This document shows, piece after piece, positions 5,821 through 31,333 of a stretch of 64,000 bases of DNA. Source of the DNA: Nitrospira sp. BO4 (GTDB taxonomy: Bacteria > Nitrospirota > Nitrospiria > Nitrospirales > Nitrospiraceae). Position 1 is the stretch's first letter; every line of letters begins with the position of its first letter. Below the pieces are notes generated by a model that worked only from the letters and a program-made list of their open reading frames with translations, was not told the origin of the DNA and did no database searches. Where the stretch lies: NCBI GenBank assembly GCA_030144965.1, contig JAMPUU010000015.1:1-64000 (forward strand). Reading direction: 5' to 3'. A program made the translations under genes and the position numbers.

Positions 5821-5832
5821 AGGGCATGGCAC

Positions 5833-12181: not shown

Positions 12182-12184
12182 GTT

Positions 12185-12946
12185 CTACTTCAACTCATAA
12201 CCATAGTGTTCGATGATCGCCTTTGCCTGCGGGCCACCCATGAACTCCATGAGCGCTTTGGCCGCCGGGTTGTCTTTTCCCTTCGTCAGCAAGATCACGT
12301 CTTGTTTGATCGGTTCATGCAGATTGGTAGGGACGTCCCATCGACTACCTTGACCCTTGATTTTCGGATCGAGGACCTGTGATAACGCCACAAAACCCAA
12401 TTGAACATTGCCCGACTCGATGAATCCCATGGTCTGGCCGATATTTTCTCCCATGACAATTTGGGGTTGTAGACCCTCCCAGAGATCCAACTTTTGCATG
12501 GTCTGCATCGCCGCCAGGCCGTAAGGCGCGGTCTTGGGATTCGCGATGGCGAGGCGCTTGAAATTTTTTGAGCGTAACGTTTCCTCTCCTTTCACCAGGT
12601 CGGCATTCGGACTCCACAGCACGAGGCGGCCTATGGCATACGTCAAACGGGAACCCTTGACCCCCAACCCCTCGTCTTCCAACAGCTTTGGACGTTCCAT
12701 ATCGGCAGAGAAGAACACATCGAACGGCGCCCCGTTCTTGATTTGCGAATAGAAGTTTCCGGAGGAACCGGCGGCCACCCGGAGGTTGTGACCGGTTGCG
12801 GTTTCGAATTCAATCGCTATTTCACGAAATGGCGGAACAAAATTGGCGGCGACGGCCACCAAGACCTGCTCGGCGAAAGCCGGTGTCACCGCCGCACTCG
12901 CGATGACACACACATACCATGCTAGAAACCTCTGTTTCATGGTCAA
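12185..12946 (-). CDS. modA: Molybdate-binding periplasmic protein ModA
   Basis: 253 residues, signal peptide cut near AFAEQ. The mature protein has the ModA pattern: VAVAANFVPPFREIA at the start, AAGSSGNFYSQIKNGAPFDV (oxyanion-binding Ser/Gly loop), NPKTAPYGLAA, and a GNVQLGFVALSQV segment near the end. It captures molybdate (or tungstate) in the periplasm for ModBC. It lies 6 bases after the porin gene, so an outer-membrane channel and the inner-membrane importer are transcribed together. Confidence 0.92.
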   Translation of the reverse strand: MTMKQRFLAWYVCVIASAAVTPAFAEQVLVAVAANFVPPFREIAIEFETATGHNLRVAAGSSGNFYSQIKNGAPFDVFFSADMERPKLLEDEGLGVKGSRLTYAIGRLVLWSPNADLVKGEETLRSKNFKRLAIANPKTAPYGLAAMQTMQKLDLWEGLQPQIVMGENIGQTMGFIESGNVQLGFVALSQVLDPKIKGQGSRWDVPTNLHEPIKQDVILLTKGKDNPAAKALMEFMGGPQAKAIIEHYGYELK

Positions 12947-12952
12947 TCCTTT

Positions 12953-15743: not shown

Positions 15744-15749
15744 GGCGGC

Positions 15750-15783
15750 TGTATAGCAATCATAATTGTCATATGTCAATTAT
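15750..15783 (-). promoter_or_regulatory. Promoter and palindromic operator of the 14562-15743 regulator
   Basis: On the minus strand TTGACA (15774-15779), 18 bases, TATACA (15750-15755). The ATG begins 6 bases after the -10, so the mRNA should start at or next to the start codon (leaderless); no ribosome site is visible. A 22-bp palindrome covers 15762-15783: arms ATAATTG and CAATTAT around a central CATATG, with only two non-matching positions. It covers the -35 and part of the spacer, which fits autorepression. Confidence 0.65.
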
Positions 15784-16231: not shown

Positions 16232-16389
16232 CGCGCTGATGACAGTACAAAAAGAGCCGTTGTACCTAGGAGTATTCAGATGATCAGGTAGGTAGTCCAG
16301 ACGACTGGAAGTGCCAGAGTTGCTATTAATTCATTTAACTAAGAACTGACCGGACCACCGGAAGTTCACATGTCAGGGAGGAATGCGAC

Positions 16390-18030
16390 ATGAGAATTTC
16401 CGGTTCCATTCTTTTGCTTGTGATCATGGCGATTTCGCTTACACGTGTTTCACCGACTTTGGCCGTGGAAGAAGGTCAATTCGTGAGGAAGGACGGCAAG
16501 TGGGAATACTACTCGGGCGAAGATCCAGGCTTGAAGTATCTCTACTTGAAAGGACTGATTTCGGAAGAAGAGTACAGCAAAGGCCTGAAGGTCATCGAAA
16601 CCAGAGAACGGCTCACCAAGCCGAACTTTAACGTCGATGTCAACAATGGCTTGAACTTCCGCGTCGGTGAAAAATTTCTGCTCAAACTGCGGCTTCTTAC
16701 ACAGGTTCGCTATACCCACAGCAATTACAATGAAGCCTGGGGGACCATCGGTGACTCGAGAAATCCGGAGATTCTCGGCGGGCAAGTCGAGTATCGGGCA
16801 TATCGGTATGCGAGCGATTCGAATAAATTTTCAGTTTCCAATGTGCAGCTTCAATTCATGGGGCATGCCTTCGATCCTGACCTTCGGTACAATTTTTCTT
16901 TGGCCGCGACCCAACCGGCCTTTGACCAAGAAGGGGGGAGCGGGCGACTCAACCTGCTTGATGCCTATATTTCGTCATGGCACATCCCTTGGGCCACTGT
17001 TCAAGTCGGTCAGCAACGAGTCTGGTTCAATCGTGCGCTGATCACTTCCAATGCCACGACGACTTTTGCAGATAACATGGTGGTGCAGAGGGTCTTTGCG
17101 GCGAACCTCCAGAGCAGTCGGGACGTGGGTATCACCATTATGAGTGATGAAGAGAAGTATAAGTTTAACTATGCCATCGGTATTTGGGGAGGGGTTGGAG
17201 CAAATCTCACGCGAGAGGGTACGGCGGTCAGTCAGAATGTGTTGCCCCAAACCGGAACTCCGGGCGCACCAAATGCTGGAACGACCAGAACATACAACTA
17301 CGATACTCGTTTTTTGACCGGCGAGATGATGTATACGGTCAGGTTGCTTTATAAGATCGCTGGCAATCCAGGGTACGGACAGGGAGATATTCTCAATTCA
17401 CGTACCCCACAAACAGCCATTGCGTTCGCCTATGCGTATGATCCGGCTCAAAATTACCTGAGCTCGATCCGATCCGACATCGTCGAGCGGACGTTTCGTC
17501 AGCGAGTTACCCAGGCCTACAATGGGAGGCTACTCGGTGGCGGCATTTACGATTTTCACACGTTTAACCTGGATTATATCCTCAAATACAAGGGCTGGTC
17601 GCTTCAAGCGGAAGGGTTCTATCGCATTCAAGATGTACGGAATAGCGATGCTGGAACCAGACCGTTCGACTTGGGAACAATCCCCACCAGTCCCCTCGCC
17701 GTTGGGCCGCCGGTGTCACTTGGCGATGCATGGGGCTGGTATGTGCAAGTGGGGAAGTATGTGATCCCACGCAAGCTCGAAGTCGCAGTCCGATACGGCA
17801 TCCTGGATCCTTCGATTAGACAGAAACAGGATTTGACCAAAGAACTGGGCGTTGCCATCAGCTATAGCTTCGACGGCACGTACAATAATCGCATTATTCT
17901 CGATTACTCGAATATTACGATGGGCAGCGGTGGACGAGCGCCGGATCGATTTCCCTTCGAAAATCTTCCGGGATTTGGTCGGGATCTCGTCGAAAACCGG
18001 TTCAATGTCCAATATCAGTTCTATTTCTAA
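16390..18030 (+). CDS. Phosphate-selective-porin-like outer-membrane channel (OprO/OprP type)
   Basis: 546 residues, signal peptide cut near TLAVE, ribosome site GGGAGG before the ATG. Residues 25-70 carry the same module as the porin at 12953 (QFVRKDGKWEYYS, DPGLKY, GLISEEEYS). The rest is a 16-strand-type barrel with OprP-like segments (DAYISSWHIPWATVQVGQQR, FAANLQSSRDVGI) and a C-terminal aromatic strand ending in QFYF. Given the downstream oxyanion-binding and sulfate-transport genes, sulfate or a related anion is the likely cargo (inference). Confidence 0.8.
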   Translation: MRISGSILLLVIMAISLTRVSPTLAVEEGQFVRKDGKWEYYSGEDPGLKYLYLKGLISEEEYSKGLKVIETRERLTKPNFNVDVNNGLNFRVGEKFLLKLRLLTQVRYTHSNYNEAWGTIGDSRNPEILGGQVEYRAYRYASDSNKFSVSNVQLQFMGHAFDPDLRYNFSLAATQPAFDQEGGSGRLNLLDAYISSWHIPWATVQVGQQRVWFNRALITSNATTTFADNMVVQRVFAANLQSSRDVGITIMSDEEKYKFNYAIGIWGGVGANLTREGTAVSQNVLPQTGTPGAPNAGTTRTYNYDTRFLTGEMMYTVRLLYKIAGNPGYGQGDILNSRTPQTAIAFAYAYDPAQNYLSSIRSDIVERTFRQRVTQAYNGRLLGGGIYDFHTFNLDYILKYKGWSLQAEGFYRIQDVRNSDAGTRPFDLGTIPTSPLAVGPPVSLGDAWGWYVQVGKYVIPRKLEVAVRYGILDPSIRQKQDLTKELGVAISYSFDGTYNNRIILDYSNITMGSGGRAPDRFPFENLPGFGRDLVENRFNVQYQFYF

Positions 18031-18065
18031 CGCAGATGAAACAGCACAGACATAAGGAGATTGTC

Positions 18066-18890
18066 ATGACATTCGCGCCTCTTCTTGCTCGCGCACTGTT
18101 CTTCGTCAGTATCGTCGCGTTTACCGAATCAGTGGCTACACCCGCGTATGCACAATCCGAGGTCCTCACCATCGCGGCGGCTAATAACCTGAAAGACGTG
18201 CTTCGGAAGATATTGCCTCTTTTCGAAGCGCAAAACCGAGACATCGCCGTACGGGTCATTTATGCACAACCCAAGACACTCACCAAGCAAATCGAGGAAG
18301 GGGCACCAGTGGATGTCTTTCTTCCTGCGCTCATCGAGGACATCGATCAGCTGGAGAGCAAGGAGCTTATCCTTAAAGGCACCAAACATGTCTACGCTCG
18401 CACGGCCCTTGTGTTGATCACCAACAGCGCGTTCCCGGCGCAGCTCGACTCCATTCAAGATCTTGAAACCAAACCGGTGAGGCATATCGCTATCGGAGAT
18501 CCCTCGACGTCAGCCGTCGGCAAAGACACCATCCAGTTCTTGAGAGATCGAAATCTCGAGTCCCGTCTGAAATCTCAATTCATCTACGGAGAACATTCTC
18601 GAGCCGTGCTGGATCTTGTCTCAAGAGGAGAGGCGGAGTTGGGTGTGGTACATCGAGCCGATGCCATCGGATCGAAGCGAGTGCGCATCATCGATTCGGC
18701 GCCATCCGACAGTCATAGAGCGATCGCATACGGAGTCGTCTCACCTTGGACAGCACGCAACATTTCGGGAGCCCGCGACTTCGTTTCGTTCCTACAGAGC
18801 GAAAAGGCGCAGGGAGAATTCAAGCAATACGGTTTTGAGTCGGTCGTTTCAGATATCAACCTCACACAGCGCGAGGAGGTCAAGCCATGA
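18066..18890 (+). CDS. Second ModA-like oxyanion-binding protein
   Basis: 274 residues from the ATG at 18066, chosen because AAGGAG precedes it. Signal peptide to about AYAQS. The mature sequence follows ModA: LTIAAANNLKDVLRKILPLF, KQIEEGAPVDVFLPA, IGDPSTSAVGKD, RGEAELGVVHRADA. It is only distantly like ModA at 12185, so the ligand could be molybdate, tungstate or another oxyanion. No ModBC partner is adjacent; the nearest permeases are CysTW downstream. It overlaps the next gene by 4 bases. Confidence 0.75.
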   Translation: MTFAPLLARALFFVSIVAFTESVATPAYAQSEVLTIAAANNLKDVLRKILPLFEAQNRDIAVRVIYAQPKTLTKQIEEGAPVDVFLPALIEDIDQLESKELILKGTKHVYARTALVLITNSAFPAQLDSIQDLETKPVRHIAIGDPSTSAVGKDTIQFLRDRNLESRLKSQFIYGEHSRAVLDLVSRGEAELGVVHRADAIGSKRVRIIDSAPSDSHRAIAYGVVSPWTARNISGARDFVSFLQSEKAQGEFKQYGFESVVSDINLTQREEVKP

Positions 18891-19585
18891 GGGAATGGAC
18901 AAGCAGCGACAATCATAAGAGCTCATGGTTTGCCCGCACACTTCTCGTTCTAAGCATCGGCATCGTGACTGGTTGCGCAGGGACTTCAGTTGCGCCAGAG
19001 ATGAGCATTTATCAATCTGGACTCAATCGTGTGTATTTGGAAAAAGATCCTGCTCCTCACGTGAACACCCATCCAACGGCATTAACTTCAAGCGAGGTCG
19101 GTTCGTTGTTGCGAGGGGTGCGCATTTGGAAACAACGCAACATTGTCCATCGACTCCTTTCCGGAGAAGCCGAGCGAACAAGGGCCTTTCGCAATGAAGA
19201 GGTAGCGGTGCTCGCACCGGCAATTTCCAGAGCCTTGGAGCTGGCCTCACCCGATCAGCGTGTCTATTTTCACCTCGGTCAGGTGACTGAGTACGGAGAA
19301 GAGGAAACGACGACCGGTTGGTTGTCCATTCAAGGCAATCTGCTATATCTCGCCTTGACCGAGGCCCATGACCGCCATAGTCCCGGGCCTGACATCAGCA
19401 AGTACGACCGTCAGATGCCGAATGTGCCCGAACAGGCTCCTGCCTTTCACGCGACATTTGAGCCGGAAGAGTATTTGCACACGGTCCATTCAGGATGGAG
19501 GTTGTTCACGATCGACCAGCGAGAGGAACTGCACATTCGATATCGCGATGCACTTGACGCTCTCACAAAAAGTCCCCGCTCGTGA
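18887..19585 (+). CDS. Lipoprotein of unknown function
   Basis: 232 residues with a lipoprotein signal (lipobox VTGC about residue 30). The mature part has a helical region (residues 60-120) and a mixed region with [20 protein letters not shown], which suggests a beta-sheet domain. I recognise no named family. The 4-base ATGA overlap with the ModA-like gene and the following sulfate-binding protein place it in the transport operon, perhaps as an envelope accessory. Confidence 0.65.
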
Positions 19586-19643
19586 ACGAACAGTACGGTT
19601 CGACCGGTCTGAACGGGATTGCTGTCATGGAGGCGATTGGGTC

Positions 19644-20693
19644 ATGAAGACTGAGAAGAGAAAGGAGTATGTTGTGCAGATAAAACGGTTAGCTTCCATA
19701 TCTATAATGGCAGTGTTGTCTGGATTGTTTGTGCTGAGTTCATCGCTTCAGGCTGCCGAGTCCGTGGTCATCTTGAATGTGTCCTATGATCCGACGCGGG
19801 AGCTGTACCAGGAATTCAATGCGGCCTTTGCAAAGTATTGGCAGAAGGAAAAAGGCCAACCGGTCGTCGTCAAACAATCGCATGCTGGGTCCAGCAAGCA
19901 AGCGCGGGCCGTGATCGACGGCCTGGATGCCGACGTGGTGACGTTGGCCTTGGCCTATGACGTGGATGCCATCGCCAAAGCTCGCCTGTTGCCGGCAAAT
20001 TGGCAGACACGGTTGCCACACAACAGTTCACCCTATACCTCGACTATTGTCTTCCTGGTGCGGAAGGGAAATCCCAAAGCCATTCGTGATTGGGACGACC
20101 TCGTGAAACCCGGAGTGGCGGTCATTCCTGCGAATCCGAAAACGTCGGGGGCCGCGCGTTGGGCCTATCTGTCCGCGTGGGGTTATGCACTAAAAAAGTA
20201 TGACAATAGTGAAACGAAGGCCAAGGAGTTTATCGGAAAGTTTTACGCGAATGTGCCGGTGCTTGATTCCGGTGCGCGGGGTGCAACCACGACATTCGTT
20301 GAGCGCGGAATCGGGGACGTGTTGGTCGGATGGGAAAACGAGGCATATTTGGCGCTCAAGGAATTCGGCGCAGGGAAATTTGAGATTGTGACCCCATCGG
20401 TCAGCATCCTCGCGGAGCCGACCGTATCGCTCGTCGATTCGGTGGCGAAGAAAAAGGGCACCGAAACACAGGCGCAGGCCTACCTGCAGTATCTCTATTC
20501 AGATGAAGGGCAGGAGATCGCAGCCAAGCACTTTTACCGCCCCCGTTCGGAGGCGGCGTTGGCCAAGTATGCAAATCAGTTCTCCAAAGTGAGTTTATTT
20601 ACGATTGATGACGTATTCGGAGGGTGGCAAAAGGCACAGCAGACACACTTTGCAGACGGTGGGGTCTTCGATGAGATCTACAAACTGAAATAG
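19644..20693 (+). CDS. sbp: Sulfate/thiosulfate-binding periplasmic protein
   Basis: 349 residues. Signal peptide (cut near LQAAES), then the family pattern [59 protein letters not shown]. These give the sulfate-coordinating main-chain loops. ATG 19644 is used; GTG 19674 has a better placed AAAGGAG and would give a shorter, more usual signal peptide. It delivers sulfate to CysTWA, whose genes follow after two other genes. Confidence 0.9.
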
Positions 20694-20794: not shown

Positions 20795-21112
20795 ATGAAC
20801 ATCCTTCTGGTCGGCGGTGATTCCGCCGAAGTGTTCCGGAAGCGCTCGGGCGGCAGAAAAAGTCGTGTGGAGCATTGGACGGGGCGCAAGCATCGTGATC
20901 TGGTGCGATCAATCCCGAAAGCCACTGAGGCAGTCGTCGTGGTGTTGGACCGGGTGAGTCACACATTGGCGAGAAAAGTGCGCGGTGAAGCGTCGCGACG
21001 CGGGTTGCCTGTGTATTTTTTGAAGCGAGGCCGACAGATGGATGTCGATGCGCGCTCGGAATCTGTTTGTTTTGATTCTCGTCGATATCGGGAGCTTTCT
21101 GTCAATGGGTAA
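20795..21112 (+). CDS. DUF2325 domain protein
   Basis: 105 residues from the ATG at 20795 (AGGAG upstream). It begins MNILLVGGD and has VVVVLDRVSHTLARKVRGEA followed by GLPVYFLKRG, the layout of DUF2325, a small Rossmann-like domain. The function of the family is unknown, though members turn up near sulfur and metal genes. Its last 8 bases overlap the start of the next gene, which suggests translational coupling. Confidence 0.7.
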   Translation: MNILLVGGDSAEVFRKRSGGRKSRVEHWTGRKHRDLVRSIPKATEAVVVVLDRVSHTLARKVRGEASRRGLPVYFLKRGRQMDVDARSESVCFDSRRYRELSVNG

Positions 21113-21896
21113 CCTCACTCCAAGAATTCCGCACATCGGGATTGTTGCCGGAACGGCTGAGGGGGCGGCCCTCTGTTACCGAACCATCTGTCTGGAAGCG
21201 GAGCATGTCATGGGGCGCCGATATGTGCATCCGGAGATCACGCTCCATTCGTCCCCGCTTCATCTATATCTCAACGCAATCGATCGGAACGACTGGAGAG
21301 GGGTGGCTGCTCTCATGTCTCACTCGGCCTCGAAACTGGCCCGGGTCGGCGCCGATTTCTTAATTTGTCCGAACAACACGTTGCACCAGGCTATTGACTT
21401 GGTTGAATCACCGCTCCCGTGGCTGCATATCGCCAAGCCGGTTCTGGAAGAAATCATACAGCACGGTTGGCGACGAGTCGGAATTCTCGGAACGCAGATC
21501 GTCATGGAAGGGTCGATCTATTCGCATGCGCTGAAGCAGCGAGATGTCGAGACGGTGATTCCAGCGGGGGCCGACAGGGTTCGAATTCAGCATATGATTC
21601 GGAGCGAACTGATTGCAGGCCGGTTTACAAGCGACTCTCGCCTTTTTTTGCAGAAGGTGATCTCGGAGATGGCTGATGAGGGAGTCGAGGCGGTCATTCT
21701 CGGATGCACGGAATTGCCTCTATTCCTCTCTGAAGAACAATCAATTCTTCCGATGCTGGATTCAACACGCTTGCTGGCGCGAGCCGCGCTGCGTTACGGG
21801 GTCCAGAGGGAATGGCACCCGGGAGAAGAGCGTGAGACGGGTCGTCGATGTGGGGCGAGTTTCACCGACAGAGTGTTGTGTGCGGACCAAAACTGA
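21105..21896 (+). CDS. Aspartate/glutamate racemase family protein
   Basis: 263 residues, started at ATG 21105 because HIGIVAGTAEGAALCYRTIC is the family's first strand; the longer frame from 21042 adds a poor N-terminus. Both catalytic cysteines are present (CPNNTLHQA and GCTELPLF), so racemase activity on aspartate or glutamate is plausible. It overlaps the DUF2325 gene by 8 bases and is followed by cysT. Why a racemase sits among sulfate-transport genes is not clear. Confidence 0.8.
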   Translation: MGNLTPRIPHIGIVAGTAEGAALCYRTICLEAEHVMGRRYVHPEITLHSSPLHLYLNAIDRNDWRGVAALMSHSASKLARVGADFLICPNNTLHQAIDLVESPLPWLHIAKPVLEEIIQHGWRRVGILGTQIVMEGSIYSHALKQRDVETVIPAGADRVRIQHMIRSELIAGRFTSDSRLFLQKVISEMADEGVEAVILGCTELPLFLSEEQSILPMLDSTRLLARAALRYGVQREWHPGEERETGRRCGASFTDRVLCADQN

Positions 21897-21979: not shown

Positions 21980-22816
21980 ATGCGCTTGACGTTGAAACAG
22001 CCCAGCGTGCTCCCAGGATTCGGTCTGACATTGGGGTTCACCGTCTTTTATTTCAGCCTCATCGTGTTGATCCCTCTCAGCGGACTCTTCGTGAAGACCA
22101 GCACATTGTCCTGGGAACAGTTTTGGGAGATCGTCACCAATCCACGGGCCATTGCCTCCTATCAGCTGACGTTCGGGGCTTCGCTGGTCGGCGCGCTCAT
22201 CAACGGATTGTTCGGGTCGATCATCGCGTGGGTGTTGGTCAGGTACCGTTTCCCAGGCCGGTCTCTCGTCGATGCGCTCGTCGATCTACCCTTTGCCCTG
22301 CCGACCGCAGTCGCCGGCATTACGCTGACGGCGATCTATGCGTCAAACGGATGGATCGGCCGGTATCTGGAACCGTTGGGCATCAAGGTCGCTTTCACTC
22401 CGTTGGGTGTGCTTGTTGCGCTGACGTTCATCGGATTGCCGTTCGTCGTCCGTACCGTTCAGCCGGTGCTGCAGGACTTGGACAAGGAAGTCGAAGAGGC
22501 CGCCACCACGCTGGGGGCCAATCGATGGCAAACATTTCGAGCCGTCATCGTGCCCGAGCTTTGGCCTGCGCTCCTGACCGGGATCGCGATGGCGTTTGCG
22601 CGCGCCGTCGGGGAGTATGGATCGGTCATTTTCATTGCGGGCAATATGCCGCTCAAATCGGAGATCACCCCGCTGCTGATCATGACCAAATTGGAACAGT
22701 ACAATTATTCGGGAGCCACTGCGCTGGGCGTGGTGATGCTTGTGGCATCGTTTGTCCTGGCCTTGGCGATCAACCTCCTTCAGTGGTGGAGCAGCACTCG
22801 CCACATGAATCAATAG
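21980..22816 (+). CDS. cysT: Sulfate ABC transporter permease CysT
   Basis: 278 residues, six membrane helices. It has the CysT/CysU features: [40 protein letters not shown] (the ATPase-contact loop) and [18 protein letters not shown]. It forms the inner-membrane channel with CysW. It lies 6 bases before cysW; an 83-base gap to the racemase gene leaves room for a promoter, though I see none. Confidence 0.93.
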
Positions 22817-22822
22817 GAACCT

Positions 22823-23698
22823 ATGAATTCTGTCACGACTGCCGCCGACAAGGATCTGGAGTGGAAAGATTCGCTCACGACCGAGAGCTCTCTCGTCCGT
22901 AGGCTGTTGATTGCCGCCGCGTTCCTCTATTTGACGCTCTTCCTATTCGTCCCGATTGTCGCCATCTTTAGCGAAGCGTTGAAACATGGACTCGCCAGTT
23001 ACTTCGATTCGTTTCTCAATGAGGATGCCCTTGCAGCTATTCGTTTGACCCTCCTGGTCGCGGCTGTGGCTGTGCCGCTGAACGCCGTCTTCGGGGTGGC
23101 GGCGGCTTGGGCTATCGCCAAGTTCGAATTCATCGGCAAGCAGGCGCTTATTACCCTGATCGATATGCCGTTGGCCGTCTCGCCCGTAATCTCCGGATTG
23201 ATCTATGTCCTGCTCTTTGGGGCTCAGGGCTGGCTGGGTCCGTGGTTGGCCGAGCATGATATCAAGATCATCTTTGCGTTGCCCGGTATCGTCCTCGCAA
23301 CGATTTTTGTGACGGTTCCGTTTGTCGCCCGCGAGCTCATTCCCCTTATGCAATCGCAAGGGCGTGAGGAAGAGGAAGCGGCCATCACGCTGGGGGCCTC
23401 GGGCTGGCAAATGTTTACACGCGTGACGCTCCCGAATATCAAATGGAGTCTCCTCTATGGGGTGATTTTGTGCAATGCGCGTGCGATGGGTGAGTTCGGC
23501 GCGGTGTCGGTGGTCTCAGGCCATATTCGAGGGCTGACGAATACGATGCCGCTGCACGTCGAGATTTTATACAATGAGTACAACGCTGCGTCGGCGTTCG
23601 GCGTCGCCTCACTCCTGACCCTGTTGGCGATCGTAACCCTCTCAGCAAAGGCGCTGATCGAGCGGAAAACAGCCTCACCGCATCAGCGCATGCCCTAG
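22823..23698 (+). CDS. cysW: Sulfate ABC transporter permease CysW
   Basis: 291 residues with six membrane helices. Signatures: [20 protein letters not shown], the contact loop [20 protein letters not shown], and [19 protein letters not shown]. Its short hydrophilic N-terminus is usual for CysW. It pairs with CysT in the sulfate importer, and cysA follows after 41 bases. Confidence 0.94.
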
Positions 23699-23739: not shown

Positions 23740-24807
23740 ATGAGTATCCGGGTCGATCATGTCACGAAACGGTTTGGAACGTTCACCGTCTTGAACGACG
23801 TCAATCTGCAGGTTGAGGCGGGAGAACTTGTTGCGCTCCTCGGCCCGTCAGGTTGCGGCAAGACGACGCTGCTGAGAATTCTCGCTGGATTGGAACGTCC
23901 GGACCAGGGACGCATCTTTCTGCATGGCACGGAGGTGACCGATCAGCGAATCACCGAGCGCCGCGTGGGATTCGTCTTTCAGCATTACGCGCTGTTCCGT
24001 CATATGACCGTGGCGGAGAATGTCGCGTTTGGGCTGAGCGTACTGCCTCGGACACAACGGCCTTCCGCAGCCCGCATCCAGGACAAGGTCCATGAACTGC
24101 TCACGCTTGTGCAGCTGCAGGCAATGGCCGATCGGTATCCCAGCCAGTTGTCGGGCGGCCAACGACAGCGCGTTGCGCTGGCCAGAGCGCTGGCCGTGGA
24201 ACCGAAGCTCCTTCTGCTGGATGAACCCTTTGGGGCATTGGATGCGAAGGTCCGTAAAGAACTCCGCCGCTGGCTCCGGCGGCTCCACGACGACTTGCAT
24301 ATTACGAGCATCTTAGTAACCCATGACCAAGAAGAAGCTCTTGAAGCGGCTCATCGTGTCGTCGTGATGCATCAGGGGAATATCGAGCAGGTGGGTACGC
24401 CGGATGAAGTCTATGAAAATCCGGCAACTCCCTTCGTGTATCAATTCCTCGGCGATGTCAATGTCTTTCACGGGCGCATGGCACATGACCGACTCCTGGA
24501 CAGAGAAGCCGGTGAACGGGCGCAGGCCGATGGAGATGCTTCCGATCATAAGGAAGTGACGTTCGTGCGGCCTCATGATTTTGAGCTCAGCCCGACTCGG
24601 ACGGCACCGACACAACTCGAGGCGACCGTCCAGTTTCTCATTACGGCCGGCGCCCGAGTTCACGTGGAACTGGTGTCGAAAGAATCGTCTGAAATTATCG
24701 CGGTCGAGTTGACGAAGGAACGGTATCGTGAGTTGAAATTACAGCAAGGTGATGTCGTCTTTGTGCACCCGAAGCAGTTGCAGGTGTTCAAAGTGCCTCA
24801 TGCTTAA
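23740..24807 (+). CDS. cysA: Sulfate ABC transporter ATPase CysA
   Basis: 355 residues. Walker [11 protein letters not shown]-loop [12 protein letters not shown], signature [15 protein letters not shown], Walker [13 protein letters not shown], switch His in LVTHDQEEA. The C-terminal 120 residues are the TOBE-3 type regulatory domain ([13 protein letters not shown]-like stretch at about 265-280). It powers CysTW. Confidence 0.95.
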
Positions 24808-24850: not shown

Positions 24851-25270
24851 ATGACACAGCAACCTCGTTTTGTCGTGTTTGCGCACAATGCGACCTATGA
24901 CAAACTCCACCAGGTGGCAACGCTCGGCATGACCGCAGCTGCAATGGGGAAGGATGTCATCATCGTGCTACTCTTCTGGACGATCAAGAAACTTGCGGAA
25001 GGGAAAATCGATGAAGTGGATTTTCCTCCGGAGTATGCCTCTGTGTCCGGTGAGGTCTCACGTTTGTTGCAGGAGAAAAAAGTTCCAAAGATTTCTGAGA
25101 TGTTTGCAGATGCCAAGCTGGTGGGCAAGCTCCGATTGATCGCCTGTAGCGCAGGGCTTGAGTACATGGGTGTGGAAGAAGAAGCGGTCACGACACGGGT
25201 GGATGCGGTGATGGGATTGCCGGCTATCCTGACATTGACCGCCGGCGCCGAAACCACATTGTTCATCTAG
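24851..25270 (+). CDS. DsrE-family sulfur-handling protein
   Basis: 139 residues from the ATG at 24851. The fold pattern is that of DsrE/DsrF-like proteins: FVVFAHNATYDKLHQVATLG, GKDVIIVLLFWTIKKL, and LIACSAGLEYMG with the single Cys placed where DsrE-type sulfur carriers have theirs. Such proteins relay persulfide sulfur. It comes directly after the sulfate importer and before ThiS/CysK and the desulfurase system, so a role in moving reduced sulfur between these is likely (inference). Confidence 0.75.
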   Translation: MTQQPRFVVFAHNATYDKLHQVATLGMTAAAMGKDVIIVLLFWTIKKLAEGKIDEVDFPPEYASVSGEVSRLLQEKKVPKISEMFADAKLVGKLRLIACSAGLEYMGVEEEAVTTRVDAVMGLPAILTLTAGAETTLFI

Positions 25271-25299
25271 CGGTCCGGAGGCGGGAGTGAACACTCGGC

Positions 25300-25500
25300 A
25301 TGGTGATCACGGTTAATGGAAAGCCTGAAGACATTCAGGCGTCGCTTCTCTTGGATCTTCTGAATGTCAAGCGGATTGAACCTCAAATGGTTGCCGTGGA
25401 ATTGAACGATGTCATGATCGCACAGGACCAGTTGGCCGGCACGCCGCTCAAGGAGGGCGACCGTGTCGAGTTCTTGTTTTACATGGGAGGCGGTCGGTGA
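25300..25500 (+). CDS. ThiS/MoaD-like sulfur carrier protein with C-terminal GGGR
   Basis: 66 residues, ubiquitin-like fold (ITVNGKPEDIQASLLLDLL, VAVELNDVMI, GDRVEFLFYMGGG). Carriers of this family must end in Gly-Gly to be activated as a thiocarboxylate. Here one Arg follows, so it is either trimmed by a peptidase (as for QbsE) or the ending is a by-product of the 4-base GTGA overlap with the next gene. That gene is a cysteine synthase, so it may be a CysO-like donor for cysteine rather than a thiamin ThiS; no thiG or thiF is in the window. Confidence 0.8.
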   Translation: MVITVNGKPEDIQASLLLDLLNVKRIEPQMVAVELNDVMIAQDQLAGTPLKEGDRVEFLFYMGGGR

Positions 25501-26429
25501 CCGGTCGACGGCATAACAATGCGACGGAATTGATCGGGAATACTCCACTCGTTCGGCTGAATCGGCTTTCGCCCAAAGGCGGTGCAACGATCTATGCGAA
25601 GGTGGAATATGCGAACCCCGGCGGGAGTGTAAAGGACAGAATTTGCCTCAATATGATCGATGAGGCGGAGCGGAGCGGGCGGCTGAAGCCCGGCGCGACG
25701 ATCGTCGAGCCAACCAGTGGGAACACCGGCATCGGCCTGGCGCTTATCGCAGCGGTACGAGGGTACAAATTGATCCTAGTCATGCCGGAAACCATGAGTC
25801 TGGAACGGGCCAGTCTCTTATCGTCGTATGGAGCGGAATTGGTGTGCACCGCCGGTTGGGAAGGGATGTTGGGTTCAATTAGAGAAGCCGACCGCATTGT
25901 GAGCCGTAACCCGTCATACTTCAAACCGGATCAATTCTCCAACCCCGCAAATCCGTCGATCCATCGGAGAACGACGGCTGAGGAGATTTGGAATGCGTTG
26001 GACGGGCGGATCGACGCGTTCGTTGCCGGCGTCGGCACCGGCGGCACGATCACGGGTTGCGGCGAAGTGTTCAAGGAGCGGAACCAAGCGGTTCGCATCA
26101 TTGCCGTTGAACCAAGCGCCTCGCCGGTTCTTTCTGGAGGCGCTCCTGGACCGCACAAGATTCAGGGTATCGGTGCGGGATTTGTGCCGGACGTCTTGAA
26201 TCAAAAGATCCTTGACCGGGTAATTGCCATCACGGACGACGAGGCGTATCGCACCTCTAAAATCCTGGCGAGCCAAGAAGGTTTGTTCGGAGGAATTTCT
26301 TCCGGCGCGAACGTGGCTGCAGCCCAGCGCGTAGCGGCCGAGTTGGGGCGCGATCAAACGGTCGTCACGATACTTTGTGATACCGGCGAACGATATCTCA
26401 GCATGGGAAAGTATTTCGCTGAACATTGA
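25497..26429 (+). CDS. Cysteine synthase (CysK/CysM family)
   Basis: 310 residues, PLP-dependent fold type II. The PLP lysine is in NPGGSVKDR, the phosphate or substrate loop in EPTSGNTGIGLA, and the glycine-rich PLP-phosphate loop in GVGTGGTITG. It makes cysteine from O-acetylserine (or O-phosphoserine) and a sulfide donor. It overlaps the ThiS-like gene by 4 bases, which raises the possibility of a carrier-bound sulfur donor, as for CysM/CysO. The serine acetyltransferase at 29264 could supply O-acetylserine. Confidence 0.9.
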   Translation: MTGRRHNNATELIGNTPLVRLNRLSPKGGATIYAKVEYANPGGSVKDRICLNMIDEAERSGRLKPGATIVEPTSGNTGIGLALIAAVRGYKLILVMPETMSLERASLLSSYGAELVCTAGWEGMLGSIREADRIVSRNPSYFKPDQFSNPANPSIHRRTTAEEIWNALDGRIDAFVAGVGTGGTITGCGEVFKERNQAVRIIAVEPSASPVLSGGAPGPHKIQGIGAGFVPDVLNQKILDRVIAITDDEAYRTSKILASQEGLFGGISSGANVAAAQRVAAELGRDQTVVTILCDTGERYLSMGKYFAEH

Positions 26430-26438
26430 TGCTGATCG

Positions 26439-26454
26439 GAATCAAATTTGCCGA
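26439..26454 (+). promoter_or_regulatory. Weak candidate sigma-54 promoter before the encapsulin gene
   Basis: GG at 26439-26440 and GC at 26451-26452 are separated by exactly 10 bases, with TTT before the GC (-12 like TTTGC). The -24 block (CGGAATC) is a poor match to TGGCACG. It lies about 80 bases before the shell gene and would fit the sigma-54 activator at the end of the operon. Chance occurrence is quite possible. Confidence 0.2.
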
Positions 26455-26529
26455 CGAACAGATCACGTGAGGCGATAAGTCTCCATACAGGCGGGTATCA
26501 TGCCCGTCCATTTTAGAAAGGATAAGCCA

Positions 26530-27489
26530 ATGAGTCCAAGCGATACCCGAACCAGCTTGAGCGCCCAAGCGGCGCGTAATCTCGCAACCGCCACGGTCAC
26601 TGTTCCGCAGATGCTGGAGATCACTCCGCGCTGGCTGCACAAACTGCTGCCTTGGGTGGATGTCGATGGGGGCGTCTACCGCCTCAATCGTATGGCCAAA
26701 GCCAAAGGAAGACAGGCGAACGAATCCGGTGAAGTGAAAGTGGAACTGTTGACGGTCGATACCGGCGAGCCACAACTGCCGAACACGTTCGTCGATTACG
26801 AGTTGGATCCGCGTGAATATCATTTGAGTACCATCCAGACCATCGTGCACACGCATACACGCGTCACCGACTTGTACAGCAACCGCATCGATCAGCTCCG
26901 CGAACAGGTGCGCTTGACGGTTGAGGCGGTGAAGGAGCGCGAGGAGTGGGAACTCCTGAATCACCCGAAATTTGGTCTGCTGAACGAAGTGGTGCCTGGA
27001 CAGCGCATCGATGCCCGTAAGGGGACCCCCACGCCGGACGATCTGGATGAACTCTTGACTCTGGTTTGGAAGAAACCGGCGTTCTTCTTGGCGCATCCCA
27101 AAGCGATTGCCGCCTTCGGGCGTGAAGCGACCAGGCGGGGCGTACCGCCTGCCACCGTGCAGCTGTTCGGGTCTCCGTTCATTACCTGGCGTGGCATTCC
27201 GCTGATTCCGAGCAACAAGCTGGAAGTTGATAAGGCGGGCAAGACCAGCATCCTGTTGTTACGTGTGGGTGAGCCGCAGCAGGGCGTCGTTGGCCTACAA
27301 AAAGCCGGTGTCGCCGGCGAACTCGAGCCCGGTCTCTCTGTCCGCTACATGGGGACCAACGATCACGGCATCGCCTCCCATCTCATTACACGGTATTTTT
27401 CAACCGCCGTGCTGACGGAGGACGCGATCGGCCGTCTCGACAATGTTTCGATCAAGTTCTATCACGAGTATGTCTATCCGAAGGGATGA
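26530..27489 (+). CDS. Family 2A encapsulin shell protein (SrpI-like)
   Basis: 319 residues from the ATG at 26530 (AAAGGA upstream). The N-terminal arm is followed by TVPQMLEITPRWLHKLLPWV, and the rest has the HK97-type shell pattern of SrpI-like proteins (QLPNTFVDYELDPREYHLST, TLVWKKPAFFLAHPKAIAAF, FITWRGIPLIPSNKL). It lacks the cyclic-nucleotide-binding insertion of family 2B. Such shells form 60-mers around a cysteine desulfurase. The next gene, 4 bases away, is that desulfurase with a long disordered N-terminus. In studied relatives the particle stores sulfur derived from cysteine. Confidence 0.92.
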   Translation: MSPSDTRTSLSAQAARNLATATVTVPQMLEITPRWLHKLLPWVDVDGGVYRLNRMAKAKGRQANESGEVKVELLTVDTGEPQLPNTFVDYELDPREYHLSTIQTIVHTHTRVTDLYSNRIDQLREQVRLTVEAVKEREEWELLNHPKFGLLNEVVPGQRIDARKGTPTPDDLDELLTLVWKKPAFFLAHPKAIAAFGREATRRGVPPATVQLFGSPFITWRGIPLIPSNKLEVDKAGKTSILLLRVGEPQQGVVGLQKAGVAGELEPGLSVRYMGTNDHGIASHLITRYFSTAVLTEDAIGRLDNVSIKFYHEYVYPKG

Positions 27490-27493
27490 CACC

Positions 27494-29260
27494 ATGACTA
27501 CCGCGCACAACCCGATCAGTCATGACGACGATTCATTCGACACGGCGTTGATTACGCGACTCGCGAATGAGTTGTACAGGGATTCCGCCATCACGACCCA
27601 ATCATCGTCACCGACTCCCGGAGGGCCACCTGTGTTGCCGGGTATTCCCACAGCGCTCGCTGGAATACCGGGAGGATTACCGGGTATCAGCGAAACACTC
27701 TCGGCATTCCCGACCTCGTTTGCCACGTTCCCGACCGACAAGCCGGACAATCCCGGTTTAGCAGGCGGGTATCCTTTGGCTACCACGACGACCCATCTGC
27801 CGGTGCATGCCGCGCAGACAGAATCCCCTGATGTGTCATCTCCCGAAAAAGCGTTCGGCTCCGGTGAGCATAAAGCTGACTCCGACGAGGTGTACCCATT
27901 CGGGGAGCCTCGTTGCAACGGCAGCTTCAGTGCGCGAGAAGTTTACACCGAGGCCATCGACGCGGCTCCGGCATACTACTTTCTACGTGAAGGCGGTTCA
28001 CGCCCCGGTTCCATAGCCCGCGAGCCCGCAGCCGGTTCCACATTGTCGAGACTGGAGGTGGATGCCATCCGGCGGGATTTCCCTGTGCTTCACCAACGTG
28101 TGCACGGTCACCCGCTCATCTGGTTCGACAACGCCGCGACCACTCAGAAGCCTCGGAGCGTCATCGATGCCACGTCGCGCTTCTACAGCCGTGACAATTC
28201 CAACATCCATCGCGCCGCCCATGCCTTGGCGGCACGCGCAACGGATGTGTATGAAGGTGGGCGTGAAAAAGTTCGACAGTTCATCGGCGCAGCCGATACT
28301 AAGGAAATTGTCTTTGTGCGTGGCACCACAGAGGCCGTCAACTTAGTTGCTCAGACCTATGGACGCGCCCATATCGGCCGCGGCGACGAAATCCTCCTCA
28401 CCGTAATGGAGCATCACGCGAACATTGTGCCCTGGCAAACCCTGGCAGAGGAGACGGGAGCTCAGATTCGAGTTGCGCCGATCAACGACGCCGGGGAATT
28501 GATTCTCGAGCAGTTCGCCCCGCTGCTGGGACCACGCACCAAACTGGTGGCAGTTACACAGGTCTCGAACGCCTTGGGTACGATCAACCCGGTTGAGACG
28601 ATCATTGGTATGGCCCATGCTCAAGGGGTGCCAGTCCTAGTAGATGGCGCGCAATCCGCGCCGCATCTCCCGATCAATGTGCAGGCCATGGATTGCGACT
28701 TCTTCGTGTTTTCAGGACACAAAGTTTTCGGGCCGACCGGCATCGGAGTGTTGTACGGCAAAGCCGCTCTGTTGGAAAAGATGCCACCCTATCAAAGGGG
28801 TGGCAATATGATCAAAGACGTCACCTTTGAGAAAACGACTTATCAAGGAATTCCACAAAAGTTCGAAGCGGGCACTCCGGATATCGCCGGAGTCGTGGGC
28901 CTTGGCGCGGCGATCGACTACCTCACGCACATCGGCATGCCTGCCATTGCCGCGTATGAGCACGAGTTGCTGGAGTACGCGACTCAGGCGCTTTCGGCCG
29001 TTCGCGGGCTCCGTCCCATCGGGACGGCTTCCGCCAAGGCCAGTGTACTGTCGTTCGTCATGGACGGGCTTTCCAACGAGCAGGTCGCCAGGCACTTGGA
29101 TCATCGTGGGATTGCCGTGCGAGCGGGACACCATTGTGCCCAACCCACAGTACGTCGGTTCGGCTTGGAAGGAACCGTGCGCCCGTCGCTGGCCTTCTAC
29201 AATACACACGATGAAATCGGCGTACTGGTCAATGCATTGCATGAATTGCGGAGGACATGA
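27494..29260 (+). CDS. Encapsulated cysteine desulfurase with disordered cargo-loading N-terminus
   Basis: 588 residues. Residues 1-184 are Pro/Gly/Ser-rich and probably disordered, with repeated short motifs (LPGIP, LAGIPGG, LPGIS) at 47-66, as in the cargo-loading regions of family 2A desulfurases. Residues 185-588 are a SufS-type enzyme: FDNAATTQKP, HHANIVPW, PLP lysine in FSGHKVFGPTG, catalytic Cys in RAGHHCAQP. It takes sulfur from cysteine as persulfide. I start at ATG 27494, 4 bases after the shell gene. Loading into the shell is inferred from architecture and position. Confidence 0.92.
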   Translation: MTTAHNPISHDDDSFDTALITRLANELYRDSAITTQSSSPTPGGPPVLPGIPTALAGIPGGLPGISETLSAFPTSFATFPTDKPDNPGLAGGYPLATTTTHLPVHAAQTESPDVSSPEKAFGSGEHKADSDEVYPFGEPRCNGSFSAREVYTEAIDAAPAYYFLREGGSRPGSIAREPAAGSTLSRLEVDAIRRDFPVLHQRVHGHPLIWFDNAATTQKPRSVIDATSRFYSRDNSNIHRAAHALAARATDVYEGGREKVRQFIGAADTKEIVFVRGTTEAVNLVAQTYGRAHIGRGDEILLTVMEHHANIVPWQTLAEETGAQIRVAPINDAGELILEQFAPLLGPRTKLVAVTQVSNALGTINPVETIIGMAHAQGVPVLVDGAQSAPHLPINVQAMDCDFFVFSGHKVFGPTGIGVLYGKAALLEKMPPYQRGGNMIKDVTFEKTTYQGIPQKFEAGTPDIAGVVGLGAAIDYLTHIGMPAIAAYEHELLEYATQALSAVRGLRPIGTASAKASVLSFVMDGLSNEQVARHLDHRGIAVRAGHHCAQPTVRRFGLEGTVRPSLAFYNTHDEIGVLVNALHELRRT

Positions 29261-29263
29261 TCC

Positions 29264-30238
29264 ATGGATGTCAACGCGCTGGATGGGAAAGAGACTGTGA
29301 CGTCAACCTGGAATCTCGACGAGATTGTGACGGAACTCCGAGCGTCGCGCGAAATGGCGCACAATATCAGGCTGCACGGACGGAGTTGCGAATTGCCGTC
29401 TCGGCAGGCGTTGCGGAGCATTGTGGAGAACCTATGCGCCGCATTGTTCCCGACCCACTACGGCCGTGCGGATTTGAACGAGACGAACCTCGATTATTTT
29501 GTCGGGCACATCTTAAACCAAACCTTGTCTCTCTTGCAGGATCAAATCAGAAAAGGATTGCTGTTCGCCGCCGGCCCAGTCGAATTAGGACAAGCGCCGC
29601 TCGACCGTAGGGCTGCAGAAATGACCGGTGTCTTTGCAAGACAGCTCCCGGCAATCCGGGCTCTCCTGTTCACTGATTTGCAGGCTGCCTATCAAGGCGA
29701 TCCGGCGGCCACCAGCGCCTCGGAAATTCTGCTCTGCTATCCAGGCATGACCGCCGTGATCTATTACCGCATCGCTCATGCCTTGTATGATTTGGGCACG
29801 CCCCTGGTTGCTCGTTTGATTTCGGACATCGCGCATTCGTCCACCGGCATTGATATTCATCCAGGCGCTGAGATCGGCAGTCATTTTTTCATCGATCACG
29901 GAACCGGTGTGGTCATCGGTGAAACAACTGTCATCGGCCGGCGCGTCCGTCTCTATCAGGCTGTTACGCTCGGCGCGAAGCGCTTCACGGAGGGTGAACA
30001 CGGCGTGCTCGTCAAGGGAGAATCTCGCCATCCGATCGTCGAGGACGACGTCGTCATCTACGCCGGGGCTACGGTCCTGGGACGGATCACGATCGGGCGA
30101 GGCTCGGTCATTGGGGGCAATGTGTGGCTGACGCAGAGCGTTCCGGCCGGCAGCGAAGTCGTTCAGGCGCAAATGCGTACGTCGGCGATGATCCAGCCAA
30201 AGGCGCTCGAGCAACGCATCGGGCAATGGACCATTTAA
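29264..30238 (+). CDS. cysE: Serine O-acetyltransferase (EpsC/CysE type)
   Basis: 324 residues. The C-terminal half has left-handed beta-helix hexapeptides: GIDIHPGAEIGSHFFIDHGT, VIGETTVIG, VTLGAKRF, PIVEDDVVIYAGATVLG, with the acetyl-CoA and serine-site His/Asp in the DHGTG segment. The N-terminal 150 residues are a helical domain as in the longer EpsC-type enzymes. It makes O-acetylserine for the cysteine synthase. It lies 3 bases after the desulfurase gene; serine acetyltransferases are recurrent partners of family 2A encapsulins. Confidence 0.92.
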   Translation: MDVNALDGKETVTSTWNLDEIVTELRASREMAHNIRLHGRSCELPSRQALRSIVENLCAALFPTHYGRADLNETNLDYFVGHILNQTLSLLQDQIRKGLLFAAGPVELGQAPLDRRAAEMTGVFARQLPAIRALLFTDLQAAYQGDPAATSASEILLCYPGMTAVIYYRIAHALYDLGTPLVARLISDIAHSSTGIDIHPGAEIGSHFFIDHGTGVVIGETTVIGRRVRLYQAVTLGAKRFTEGEHGVLVKGESRHPIVEDDVVIYAGATVLGRITIGRGSVIGGNVWLTQSVPAGSEVVQAQMRTSAMIQPKALEQRIGQWTI

Positions 30239-30256
30239 CCGTTCACTGTGTCAAGC

Positions 30257-31333
30257 ATGCGCAGTTCTCCCACATTTCCGATTCAGATCGACATGGCCCC
30301 GAATTCGCATGCGCTGGATCTGTCCGCTCGTGCGAGTTGTTTGGTATTCGAGGACCAGGCTTCCAGGTCGCTTCTGGTTGAAGTTCAACATATCGCGCCT
30401 AGCGACGCGACGGTGCTCATCATCGGTGAGACCGGGACGGGCAAGGAGTTGATTGCCCGCCATATTCACGAATTGAGCAACCGCCGAGGTGGTCCATTCG
30501 TTGCGGTGAACTGTGCCGCCATCAGCGAGTCGCTCATGGAAAGTGAATTATTCGGTCATGAGCGCGGCGCCTTTACCGGCGCTGTCGGCGATAAAGCAGG
30601 ATGGTTTGAAGCTGCTCAGGGGGGCTCATTATTCCTGGACGAGATCGGAGACCTTCCCTTCTTGTTGCAAGCCAAATTGCTGCGAGTGATCCAAGAACGG
30701 GAAGTCGTCCGTGTCGGTTCACGACGCCCTATTTCAATCGATACACGATTGATCGCTGCGACCAACGTGAAGCTCGACGAGGCCGCAAGTGCCGGCCGGT
30801 TTCGGAGCGATCTCTATTACCGGCTAAAAGTGGCATCGATTGATTTGCCTCCGCTCCGGAAACGTCCCGGAGATATCATGCCGCTGGTTCGGCATTTTTT
30901 GAATCTCTATGGGGCGAAACTCGGTTATGCCAAGGTTGAACTTACCCCTGAAACCGTGCAGACCCTCCTGTCGTATCCATGGCCTGGCAACATTCGTGAA
31001 CTTGAAAACTCCATCCACCATGCGCTCCTCGTCTGCTCGGGGACGAGCATATGTCCAGAAGACCTGCGTCTGCCGGTTTCTCCTCCGCAGGAATCAGGGA
31101 CGCTGGAGGCGGCGCTGCTGCCAGCGCTCGAATCGGTTCTGAACCATTTGTTCTCGAGCAAGAATGCCGTACCGGATCTGTATCGGTCGATTGATGAGAC
31201 AGTCATTCGCACGGCGTATGGCTATTGTGAGGAAAATCAGCTTCGTACCGCGCGGCTTCTTGGCATCAGCAGAAATGTGGTTCGCGATCGCTTGATCCGG
31301 TACGGGATGCTCGGCTCTCAGGCCGTGAAATAA
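30257..31333 (+). CDS. Sigma-54-dependent activator without receiver domain
   Basis: 358 residues (a GTG three codons earlier, 30248, is also possible). The AAA+ domain fills most of the protein: Walker A GETGTGKE, sigma-54 contact loop GAFTGA, Walker B SLFLDEIGDL, arginine-finger region around RFRSDLYYRL. The last 45 residues are a Fis-type helix-turn-helix (RTARLLGISRNVVRDRLI). There is only a short N-terminus and no sensor, like SfnR-type regulators of sulfur starvation. It closes the operon, so it probably controls sulfur genes. Confidence 0.9.
   Translation: MRSSPTFPIQIDMAPNSHALDLSARASCLVFEDQASRSLLVEVQHIAPSDATVLIIGETGTGKELIARHIHELSNRRGGPFVAVNCAAISESLMESELFGHERGAFTGAVGDKAGWFEAAQGGSLFLDEIGDLPFLLQAKLLRVIQEREVVRVGSRRPISIDTRLIAATNVKLDEAASAGRFRSDLYYRLKVASIDLPPLRKRPGDIMPLVRHFLNLYGAKLGYAKVELTPETVQTLLSYPWPGNIRELENSIHHALLVCSGTSICPEDLRLPVSPPQESGTLEAALLPALESVLNHLFSSKNAVPDLYRSIDETVIRTAYGYCEENQLRTARLLGISRNVVRDRLIRYGMLGSQAVK

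Follow-up and report, generated by a model that had tools for sequence, protein, structure and literature searches.

A family 2A encapsulin locus of Nitrospira with an attached sulfur-carrier cassette and a possible route for withdrawing stored sulfur

The family 2A encapsulin shell of Acinetobacter baumannii reportedly stores sulfur. In Synechococcus elongatus, the cysteine desulfurase is loaded through its N-terminal domain into the SrpI shell, the shell is made under sulfate starvation, and no growth defect was observed in mutants of the shell-system genes (PMC8049743, accessible part); sulfur storage by family 2A shells is likewise cited in the accessible part of PMC12407261. Thiocarboxylate carriers form a separate field: in mycobacteria, CysM draws sulfur from the CysO-thiocarboxylate, whose own source of sulfur was stated to be unknown in 2011 (PMC3227635, accessible part), while ThiS/MoaD-E1-JAB-cysteine synthase operons, some with sulfate/sulfite transporters, were tabulated in 2006 (table rows 4c-4e, PMC1779556) in a paper that is older than the family 2 naming and whose accessible part mentions no encapsulin or desulfurase shell. 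A literature search, with subscription papers mostly outside it, found no publication joining an encapsulin with a thiocarboxylate or with a sulfur carrier protein. Here we analyzed 64,000 nucleotides of Nitrospira sp. BO4 (GCA_030144965.1, contig JAMPUU010000015.1, positions 1 to 64,000; hereafter the window), in which a core family 2A encapsulin locus (26530-30238; shell, desulfurase and acetyltransferase) lies within seven plus-strand genes (24851-31333) that also encode a DsrE-like protein, a ThiS-like carrier, the cysteine synthase CysK and a sigma-54 activator. Such a core is already known; what is new is the carrier cassette attached to it, together with the presence of a differently derived cassette of this type in other phyla. 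We give an even chance to the reading that the locus banks sulfur and draws on it through a thiocarboxylate carrier.

The locus resembles the described family 2A system (SrpI-CyD of S. elongatus and the A. baumannii shell 8t6r) in its shell, in the forms of its cargo motifs and in having an acetyltransferase and CysK nearby, as on pANL. Unlike that system, the window run holds a DsrE-like protein, a ThiS-like carrier, a sulfate importer and a sigma-54 activator, with an E1 (ThiF) gene in 6/8 relatives, and no rhodanese was found in it. Gene sets of carrier, synthase, E1 and JAMM, like the CysO-CysM-Mec+-MoeZ set of Mycobacterium tuberculosis, occur in a housekeeping cluster on contig C29 of the same genome and in shell loci of Verrucomicrobiota and Aliarcobacter, whereas the window synthase is CysK-type and stands beside an acetyltransferase, the ThiS-like carrier has a residue after GGG, a shell and a desulfurase are attached, and E1 and JAMM lie outside the module. 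The operons tabulated in 2006 comprise the same gene kinds.

The encapsulin core and its gene run

The seven genes and the gap that bears on them are as follows.

24851..25270, +, DsrE-like sulfur relay protein (PF13686, 31.4 bits for the whole protein, cut-off 25; no single stretch passes alone)
25300..25500, +, ThiS-like sulfur carrier (TIGR01683, 57.8, cut-off 37.45)
25497..26429, +, cysteine synthase CysK (TIGR01139, 438.6, cut-off 350.95; CysK, not CysM, by model)
26430..26529, +, 100-base gap at the place of the relatives' E1-like ThiF gene (gene order comparison)
26530..27489, +, family 2A encapsulin shell, SrpI type (NF041162, 467.9, cut-off 380; PF19307, 361, cut-off 22.8)
27494..29260, +, SufS-type cysteine desulfurase, presumed encapsulated (TIGR01979, 556.7, cut-off 475.1)
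29264..30238, +, serine O-acetyltransferase, EpsC type (NF041874, 166.3, cut-off 150; TIGR01172, 172.9, below its cut-off of 210.65)
30248..31333, +, sigma-54 activator (PF00158, 231.9; PF25601; GAFTGA-type loop)

The first-pass annotation had read the core as a family 2A shell followed, at gaps of 3-4 bases, by a SufS-type desulfurase with a long N-terminus and a serine acetyltransferase; the gaps measured 4 bases (shell to desulfurase) and 3 bases (desulfurase to acetyltransferase) on the same strand, and the identities held. Judged by sequence, the window shell is a family 2A encapsulin of the SrpI type with the HK97 fold. Its closest solved chains in a sequence search are SrpI 6x8m (1e-111) and the A. 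baumannii shell 8t6r (2e-111), and its identity to SrpI of S. elongatus is 57% over 99%. Although the listed open reading frame opens at 26500, relatives share a start corresponding to 26530, which gives a protein of 319 amino acids whose residues 8-319 align with SrpI 8-308, i.e., without the cyclic-nucleotide-binding insertion that is the hallmark of family 2B. The 2B model NF041163 matches too (469.6, over the cut-off of 400), but through the shell part alone and in two stretches; shells assigned to 2B (n = 17) have open reading frames of 458-543 amino acids. A structural comparison with SrpI-type capsids, suggested earlier as a check, was borne out in the Foldseek ranking, which placed 2A and 2B shells first (6x8m, 6.8e-27), and fell short in the AlphaFold model itself, which was poor (mean predicted local distance difference test score 46.7), so the family assignment stands on the sequence match. 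PF19307 shell matches were present in 9/395 Nitrospirota genomes searched (a draw from the larger group, window genome included), all belonging to one family and three genera, and these shells are 86-100% identical to that of the window; since one genome (G276) is of the same species as the window and nearly identical to it, the nine loci count as eight lineages.

The desulfurase carries an N-terminal extension of ~186 residues followed by the catalytic domain, with which the solved relative 8kg1 aligns from residue 187 onward. The NCBI cargo model NF041166 scores it at 792.8, just below the cut-off of 800, with profile positions 182-623 of 623 matched. Published family 2A cargo motifs are LARLANEFFS-like and YYFL-like and lie in the desulfurase N-terminal domain (PMC8049743, accessible part); forms of both are present here as LITRLANELY and APAYYFLREG, and variants of both occur in 9/9 Nitrospirota loci (with patterns loosened after the alignment had been viewed). 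The motifs of the pyridoxal phosphate-binding lysine and of the catalytic cysteine are both present. Particle assembly, cargo loading and sulfur accumulation would be taken over from relatives by family membership. The window copy alone has a G435R change, which falls in a loop: codon 435 (28796-28798) is AGG, where the same-species genome has GGG and all eight other Nitrospirota copies have Gly. The GGNMI motif, found in 73/105 desulfurase frames of the fetched loci, is preceded by G in 67, S in 3, T in 2 and A in 1. The acetyltransferase (match to 3f1x, 4.5e-84) ends in Ile in 9/9 Nitrospirota loci and in 30/68 other family 2A loci; a C-terminal Ile of serine acetyltransferase is required for its complex with CysK.

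Upstream of the DsrE-like gene, the run extends in the same direction through a sulfate importer to a porin-like gene, and from this gene (16390) through 31333 the largest intergenic gap is 100 bases. The genes of this part are listed below.

16390..18030, +, porin-like outer-membrane protein that opens the co-directional run (no Pfam/NCBIfam match, label by eye; syntenic in 9/9 loci)
18036..18890, +, ModA-type binding protein (TIGR01256, 141.8 bits, cut-off 62.5)
18887..19585, +, small protein, lipoprotein-like by eye (no Pfam family; syntenic)
19680..20693, +, sulfate-binding protein, Sbp (NF008022, 520 bits, cut-off 288; scanned as 19470-20693)
20795..21112, +, DUF2325 protein (PF10087, 35.3 bits, cut-off 33.6)
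21042..21896, +, Asp/Glu-type amino-acid racemase (PF01177, 94.5; TIGR00035, 114.6, cut-off 93.1; cysteate racemase model NF052483, 97.5, under the cut-off of 190)
21980..22816, +, sulfate permease CysT (TIGR02139, 432.8, cut-off 246.1)
22823..23698, +, sulfate permease CysW (TIGR02140, 407.9, cut-off 329.1)
23740..24807, +, sulfate importer ATPase CysA (TIGR00968, 396.6, cut-off 342.75)

The earlier call of DsrE-like, ThiS-like and CysK genes upstream of the shell, preceded by sulfate import in the same direction, is backed by models above their cut-offs, and the suggested comparison of gene order in relatives found the core order in all 8 other shell-bearing Nitrospirota genomes, which argues against a chance arrangement. 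The order porin-ModA-like-small protein-Sbp-CysT-CysW-CysA-DsrE-ThiS-CysK-shell-desulfurase-acetyltransferase is kept in 9/9 loci. A second Sbp is present in three of the nine and the racemase in 7/9, the positions of the racemase and DUF2325 genes vary, and the sigma-54 activator follows the acetyltransferase in 4 loci and lies between CysA and DsrE in 5.

The description of the region as a full sulfate-to-cysteine locus proved too strong, with the reduction genes on contig C12 and the module E1 absent in the window. C12 carries two PAPS-reductase-family (CysH/CysD-type) genes (PAPS, 3'-phosphoadenosine 5'-phosphosulfate), a GTPase with an adenosine 5'-phosphosulfate kinase domain, and a sulfite reductase. 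In a genome search, the PAPS-reductase family was confined to C12 and C17 and the sulfite reductase to C12, and no ATP sulfurylase of the PF01747 type was found in the whole genome. The sulfite reductase has a C-terminal TusA domain in one frame of 832 codons (L174, G000:C12:650000-669000, 11479-13974, minus strand), a further case in this genome of a fusion that involves sulfur relay.

Carrier genes in Nitrospirota and beside other shells

The thiS and cysK genes of the window overlap by 4 bases. In 9/9 loci, ThiS (that of the window and its eight orthologues) has a C-terminal MGGG followed by a single residue (R, L or Q; R in the window), and housekeeping ThiS copies likewise end in GGG plus one residue (R or C) in 10/10 genomes, a second housekeeping carrier ending in GG. 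Adenylation of such a carrier needs a free glycine end, so that trimming would be needed, because one residue stands after GGG; trimming by JAMM enzymes, as is reported for the carriers QbsE and HcyS, is likely by analogy.

Between CysK and the shell, 6/8 relatives carry a ThiF-type E1 gene that the window, G276 and G149 lack at this place; gene order comparison, the 26430..26529 gap included, found none in the window's module. Two strong E1 matches and the strong JAMM match of the genome all fall on C29, which holds the cluster ThiS-CysK-ThiF-ThrC-ThiS-ThiF-JAMM (ThrC and CysK named by model in the window genome). The same cluster was present in 10/10 genomes fetched, two of them without a shell match, and JAMM and ThiF matches were present in 12/12 genomes searched. 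Identity to the respective C29 copies is 77% for CysK and 58% for ThiS of the window; between the window CysK and SrpG of pANL it is 54%. In the CysK tree, module (9) and housekeeping copies form one clade (19 rows, support 100/100) apart from CysK of other shell loci, and in the E1 tree, module (6) and housekeeping copies do the same (16 rows, 100/99). Because of these shared clades, ThiS-CysK-E1 by the shell is, on phylogeny, a second copy of the housekeeping set, of which the window retains two of three genes. The split inside the CysK clade is less sure (module group 83/51, housekeeping group 94/87), and the module rows of the E1 clade do not resolve as a group. Pairwise ratios of nonsynonymous to synonymous substitution rates (dN/dS) were 0.06-0.13 for cysK (five pairs) and 0.07-0.14 for thiS (4 computable pairs, a fifth being saturated), and in five pairs each 0.04-0.11 for dsrE and 0.04-0.06 for the shell; the module thiS and cysK are therefore under purifying selection.

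Six ThiS-family genes were found in the genome, the window ThiS among them. A thiamine or molybdopterin role for it was ruled out, since carriers of their own stand beside ThiG/ThiE and with MoaC/MoaE/MoaA. The thiamine-type ThiS beside ThiG runs ~18 codons past GGG to its stop (L185, G000:C24:116000-127000, 5553-5849, minus strand), MoaD-like and MoaE domains share a single open frame beside MoaC and MoaA (L186, G000:C26:16000-27000, 5364-6071), and a further ThiS-family gene ending in ISGG lies on the same contig as the module, ~82 kb from it (L187, G000:C15:102000-113000, 5497-5733, minus strand).

Published accessory genes of family 2A loci are an acetyltransferase and a rhodanese (PMC8346489, accessible part). 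The Nitrospirota runs yielded no rhodanese; one is present in G210, on the opposite strand and 2.4 kb beyond the acetyltransferase. The DsrE-like protein matches solved 2qs7 (2e-13) and has one invariant Cys (ACSAGLEYMG) in 9/9 Nitrospirota loci. Given that rhodanese was not found and that 2qs7 and 3pnx have a Cys at the aligned position, the DsrE-like protein could occupy the place of the rhodanese.

We compared these loci with 88 family 2A loci outside Nitrospirota (7 plasmid, 61 from the genome_contigs set, 8 Verrucomicrobiota and 12 Pseudomonadota; the sets may overlap). The plasmid loci are 7 of 32 shell-bearing records, chosen for lineage spread; the genome_contigs loci are the best 80 of 581 confirmed stretches minus 17 of family 2B and minus L033 and L034 (same records as G258 and G208); the Verrucomicrobiota loci are 8 of 12 shell genomes among 387 (three left out as 2B by frame length, one already present as L076); and the Pseudomonadota loci are 12 of 17 among 398 (four left out as 2B by frame length, one already present as L112). 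Genes were counted at set bit scores with profiles built from Nitrospirota, Aliarcobacter and S. elongatus proteins, which may miss distant forms, and E1, ThiS, JAMM, Sbp, permease, CysK, DsrE and activator were counted on the shell's strand only; 26/88 loci have <5 kb on one side of the shell. Uncounted on these terms were an E1 on the opposite strand (L102), a weak match 10 kb away (L106), a 20-bit DsrE match (L205) and an activator of 285 bits, on the opposite strand and 10 kb away (L085).

The results showed a desulfurase near the shell in 87 loci, an acetyltransferase in 68 and a CysK-like gene in 18. A sulfate-binding protein or permease was near the shell in 15/88 loci, and a pairing of importer and shell unique to the window locus was thereby rejected. 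The earlier view that the window holds a more complete module than usual stood in part: uptake, carrier, synthase, shell, cargo and activator do form one conserved run, but an importer near the shell is shared with those 15 loci. No comparable sigma-54 activator was found near the shell in the 88 loci. As an observation in its own right, L195 (Verrucomicrobiota G614) carries on one strand Sbp-CysK-CysT-CysW-CysA-Sbp-shell-desulfurase-rhodanese-CysE-CysK, and no carrier genes were found there.

Same-strand E1 genes near the shell were found in 6/88 loci, among them a lone E1 5 kb downstream in L109 that was not counted for the cassette, and the full CysM-like-JAMM-ThiS-E1 set in 5/88, a count that is not a population rate, given how the loci were chosen; among the 17 family 2B loci, no E1, ThiS or JAMM was found near the shell. 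The five cassettes lie 5' of the shell in four Verrucomicrobiota loci (L076, L197, L198, L200) and on plasmid pACIB of Aliarcobacter cibarius (L029), the one plasmid through which Campylobacterota were sampled; interspersed with the cassette in L029 are also genes for a sulfate-binding protein and a rhodanese and two for transposases. The carrier ends in GG+C or GG+I in L197, L198, L200 and L029, and in L076 carrier, E1 and rhodanese form one frame. The CysM-like enzymes of the five cassettes form a clade separate from Nitrospirota CysK (100/99, long branches), and the shells of these loci stand far from the Nitrospirota shells on the tree. Mapped onto a shell tree of 95 rows, 'thiocarboxylate genes' as a label takes 4 changes, compared with 13.3 on average after shuffling, and starred branches force 3; one of the four is due to L199, whose contig starts at the shell so that its state cannot be read from it. 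Modest support (97/69 and 88/11) places the Nitrospirota shells within a group of mostly Verrucomicrobiota shells where no cassette was found, the lack being uninformative for some of the nearest (L037, L040, L041, L042), which come from loci with little upstream DNA. It seems from these trees that a carrier cassette was coupled to the shell independently, which we read as two times, or three if L076 stands apart, the exact number being unsure from the long branches of L029 and L076.

Regulatory signals and flanking genes

The activator has an AAA+ domain and, by eye, a C-terminal helix-turn-helix-like end, and is without a receiver domain. Its position is what links it to the genes of the run, which it may control. 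No conserved sigma-54 promoter was found by eye 5' of the shell or DsrE in the nine loci. In a consensus scan with plain base shuffles as the null, sites scoring at least 13 numbered 82 in the window (shuffled mean 65.9) and 76 in its twin G276 (64.8), versus 73 in G210 (88.3) and 71 in G115 (89.6), with the other loci in between. With this inconsistent excess and no conserved site, the scan lends no support to control by the neighboring activator. A sigma-70 scan found 12 sites with 10.4 expected, terminators numbered 21 against 16.2 (standard deviation 4.2), and Rfam matches in 9000-40000 numbered 0. Two further features lie at the head of the run.

14562..15779, -, divergent regulator with helix-turn-helix and periplasmic-binding-like domains (PF01381, 44.6; PF12727, 206.8)
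16343..16367, +, imperfect dyad GAACTGACCGGACCACCGGAAGTTC, 22 bases 5' of the porin-like gene that opens the run

The dyad is in the same place 5' of the porin-like gene in 7/9 loci and is single copy genome-wide (at up to 3 mismatches); it is possibly an operator or a leader hairpin, and the divergent regulator possibly controls the run. Beyond that regulator, molybdate-type importer genes (ModA, ModB and ModC by eye) and a porin-like gene (10413-14497, minus strand) are divergent from the sulfate run, in a region that varies in relatives.

Possible withdrawal of stored sulfur

In the proposed sulfur bank, the desulfurase would be loaded into the family 2A shell through its N-terminal extension, as published for relatives, and would turn cysteine into alanine and sulfane sulfur that is retained in the shell. 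For withdrawal, sulfur would exit the shell as a persulfide and be accepted by the DsrE-like protein, standing in for the rhodanese of other loci; the DsrE-like protein would hand it to the ThiS-like carrier, whose C-terminal thiocarboxylate would be made by E1 (ThiF), and CysK would join the carrier sulfur to O-acetylserine from the neighboring acetyltransferase to give cysteine. In the window genome, both E1 and the JAMM that would trim the residue after GGG would be supplied by the C29 housekeeping cluster. We infer the withdrawal arm from the genes that lie between synthase and shell, and its direction of flow, the identity of the acceptor, the trimming and the sigma-54 control are all conditional in the same way.

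Several points weigh against this proposal. E1 is absent from the module in the window and in 2/8 relatives; the full cassette was not found in 83/88 other loci, so it is dispensable for the core system; and no DsrE was found beside the shell in the 88 loci at 60 bits (the one match, L205, is of 20 bits). Making cysteine from cysteine-derived sulfur is circular unless the two are split in time, CysK-type enzymes normally take free sulfide, and the genome encodes a sulfite reductase on C12. The G435R change, whether strain variant, decay or base-call error, may also mean that the desulfurase is impaired.

The best surviving alternative, plausible if still somewhat unlikely, is a sulfur-starvation regulon, in which shell and desulfurase are co-expressed with the importer, the acetyltransferase and a spare synthase cassette and no sulfur passes directly from shell to carrier. 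Importer, CysK-like and acetyltransferase genes occur near shells in many phyla (15, 18 and 68 of 88), the S. elongatus shell is produced under sulfate starvation (PMC8049743, accessible part), gene neighborhood is no proof of physical coupling, and the module E1 is missing in 3/9 loci, all as such a regulon would have it; but in two distinct cassettes ThiS and E1 genes either separate the synthase from the shell or adjoin them, and a plain cysteine synthase needs neither. A further, improbable alternative puts the carrier on the deposit side, where ThiS-CysK-acetyltransferase would make extra cysteine for the encapsulated desulfurase, the run would only fill the store and reductants would release the sulfur. 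This would agree with the acetyltransferase, and at times CysK, lying also near shells whose loci yielded no carrier gene, and with the terminal Ile of the acetyltransferase in 9/9 loci, as the CysK complex requires, yet it leaves unexplained why a thiocarboxylate carrier rather than sulfide should serve while a sulfite reductase is present. That ThiS-CysK is a functionless housekeeping duplicate in transit, copied beside the shell by chance and losing its E1, would suit the E1-less modules of the window, G276 and G149 and the intact housekeeping copy, but is very improbable and largely refuted by dN/dS of 0.06-0.14 in 9 computable pairs, by the retention of ThiS-CysK in 9/9 loci of three genera and by the occurrence of a comparable but distinct cassette next to shells in other phyla.

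Taken beyond the window, withdrawal through a carrier may be a general arrangement, a possibility that we rate short of an even chance: shell stores would be drawn via a ubiquitin-like carrier, the encapsulated desulfurase (or the sulfur it has laid down) charging a ThiS-type protein via E1 and a synthase remaking cysteine, coupled at least twice, the cassette of Nitrospirota being different from that of a Verrucomicrobiota/Campylobacterota lineage. Such an arrangement could supply the sulfur source of CysO-type pathways. No route of sulfur recovery from family 2A shells was found described in the accessible parts of the literature, and the two different cassettes point to one answer. If that answer is true, encapsulin sulfur storage and thiocarboxylate carriers, now two separate fields, would be joined, and a virus-derived shell would have been coupled at least twice to a ubiquitin-like sulfur relay.

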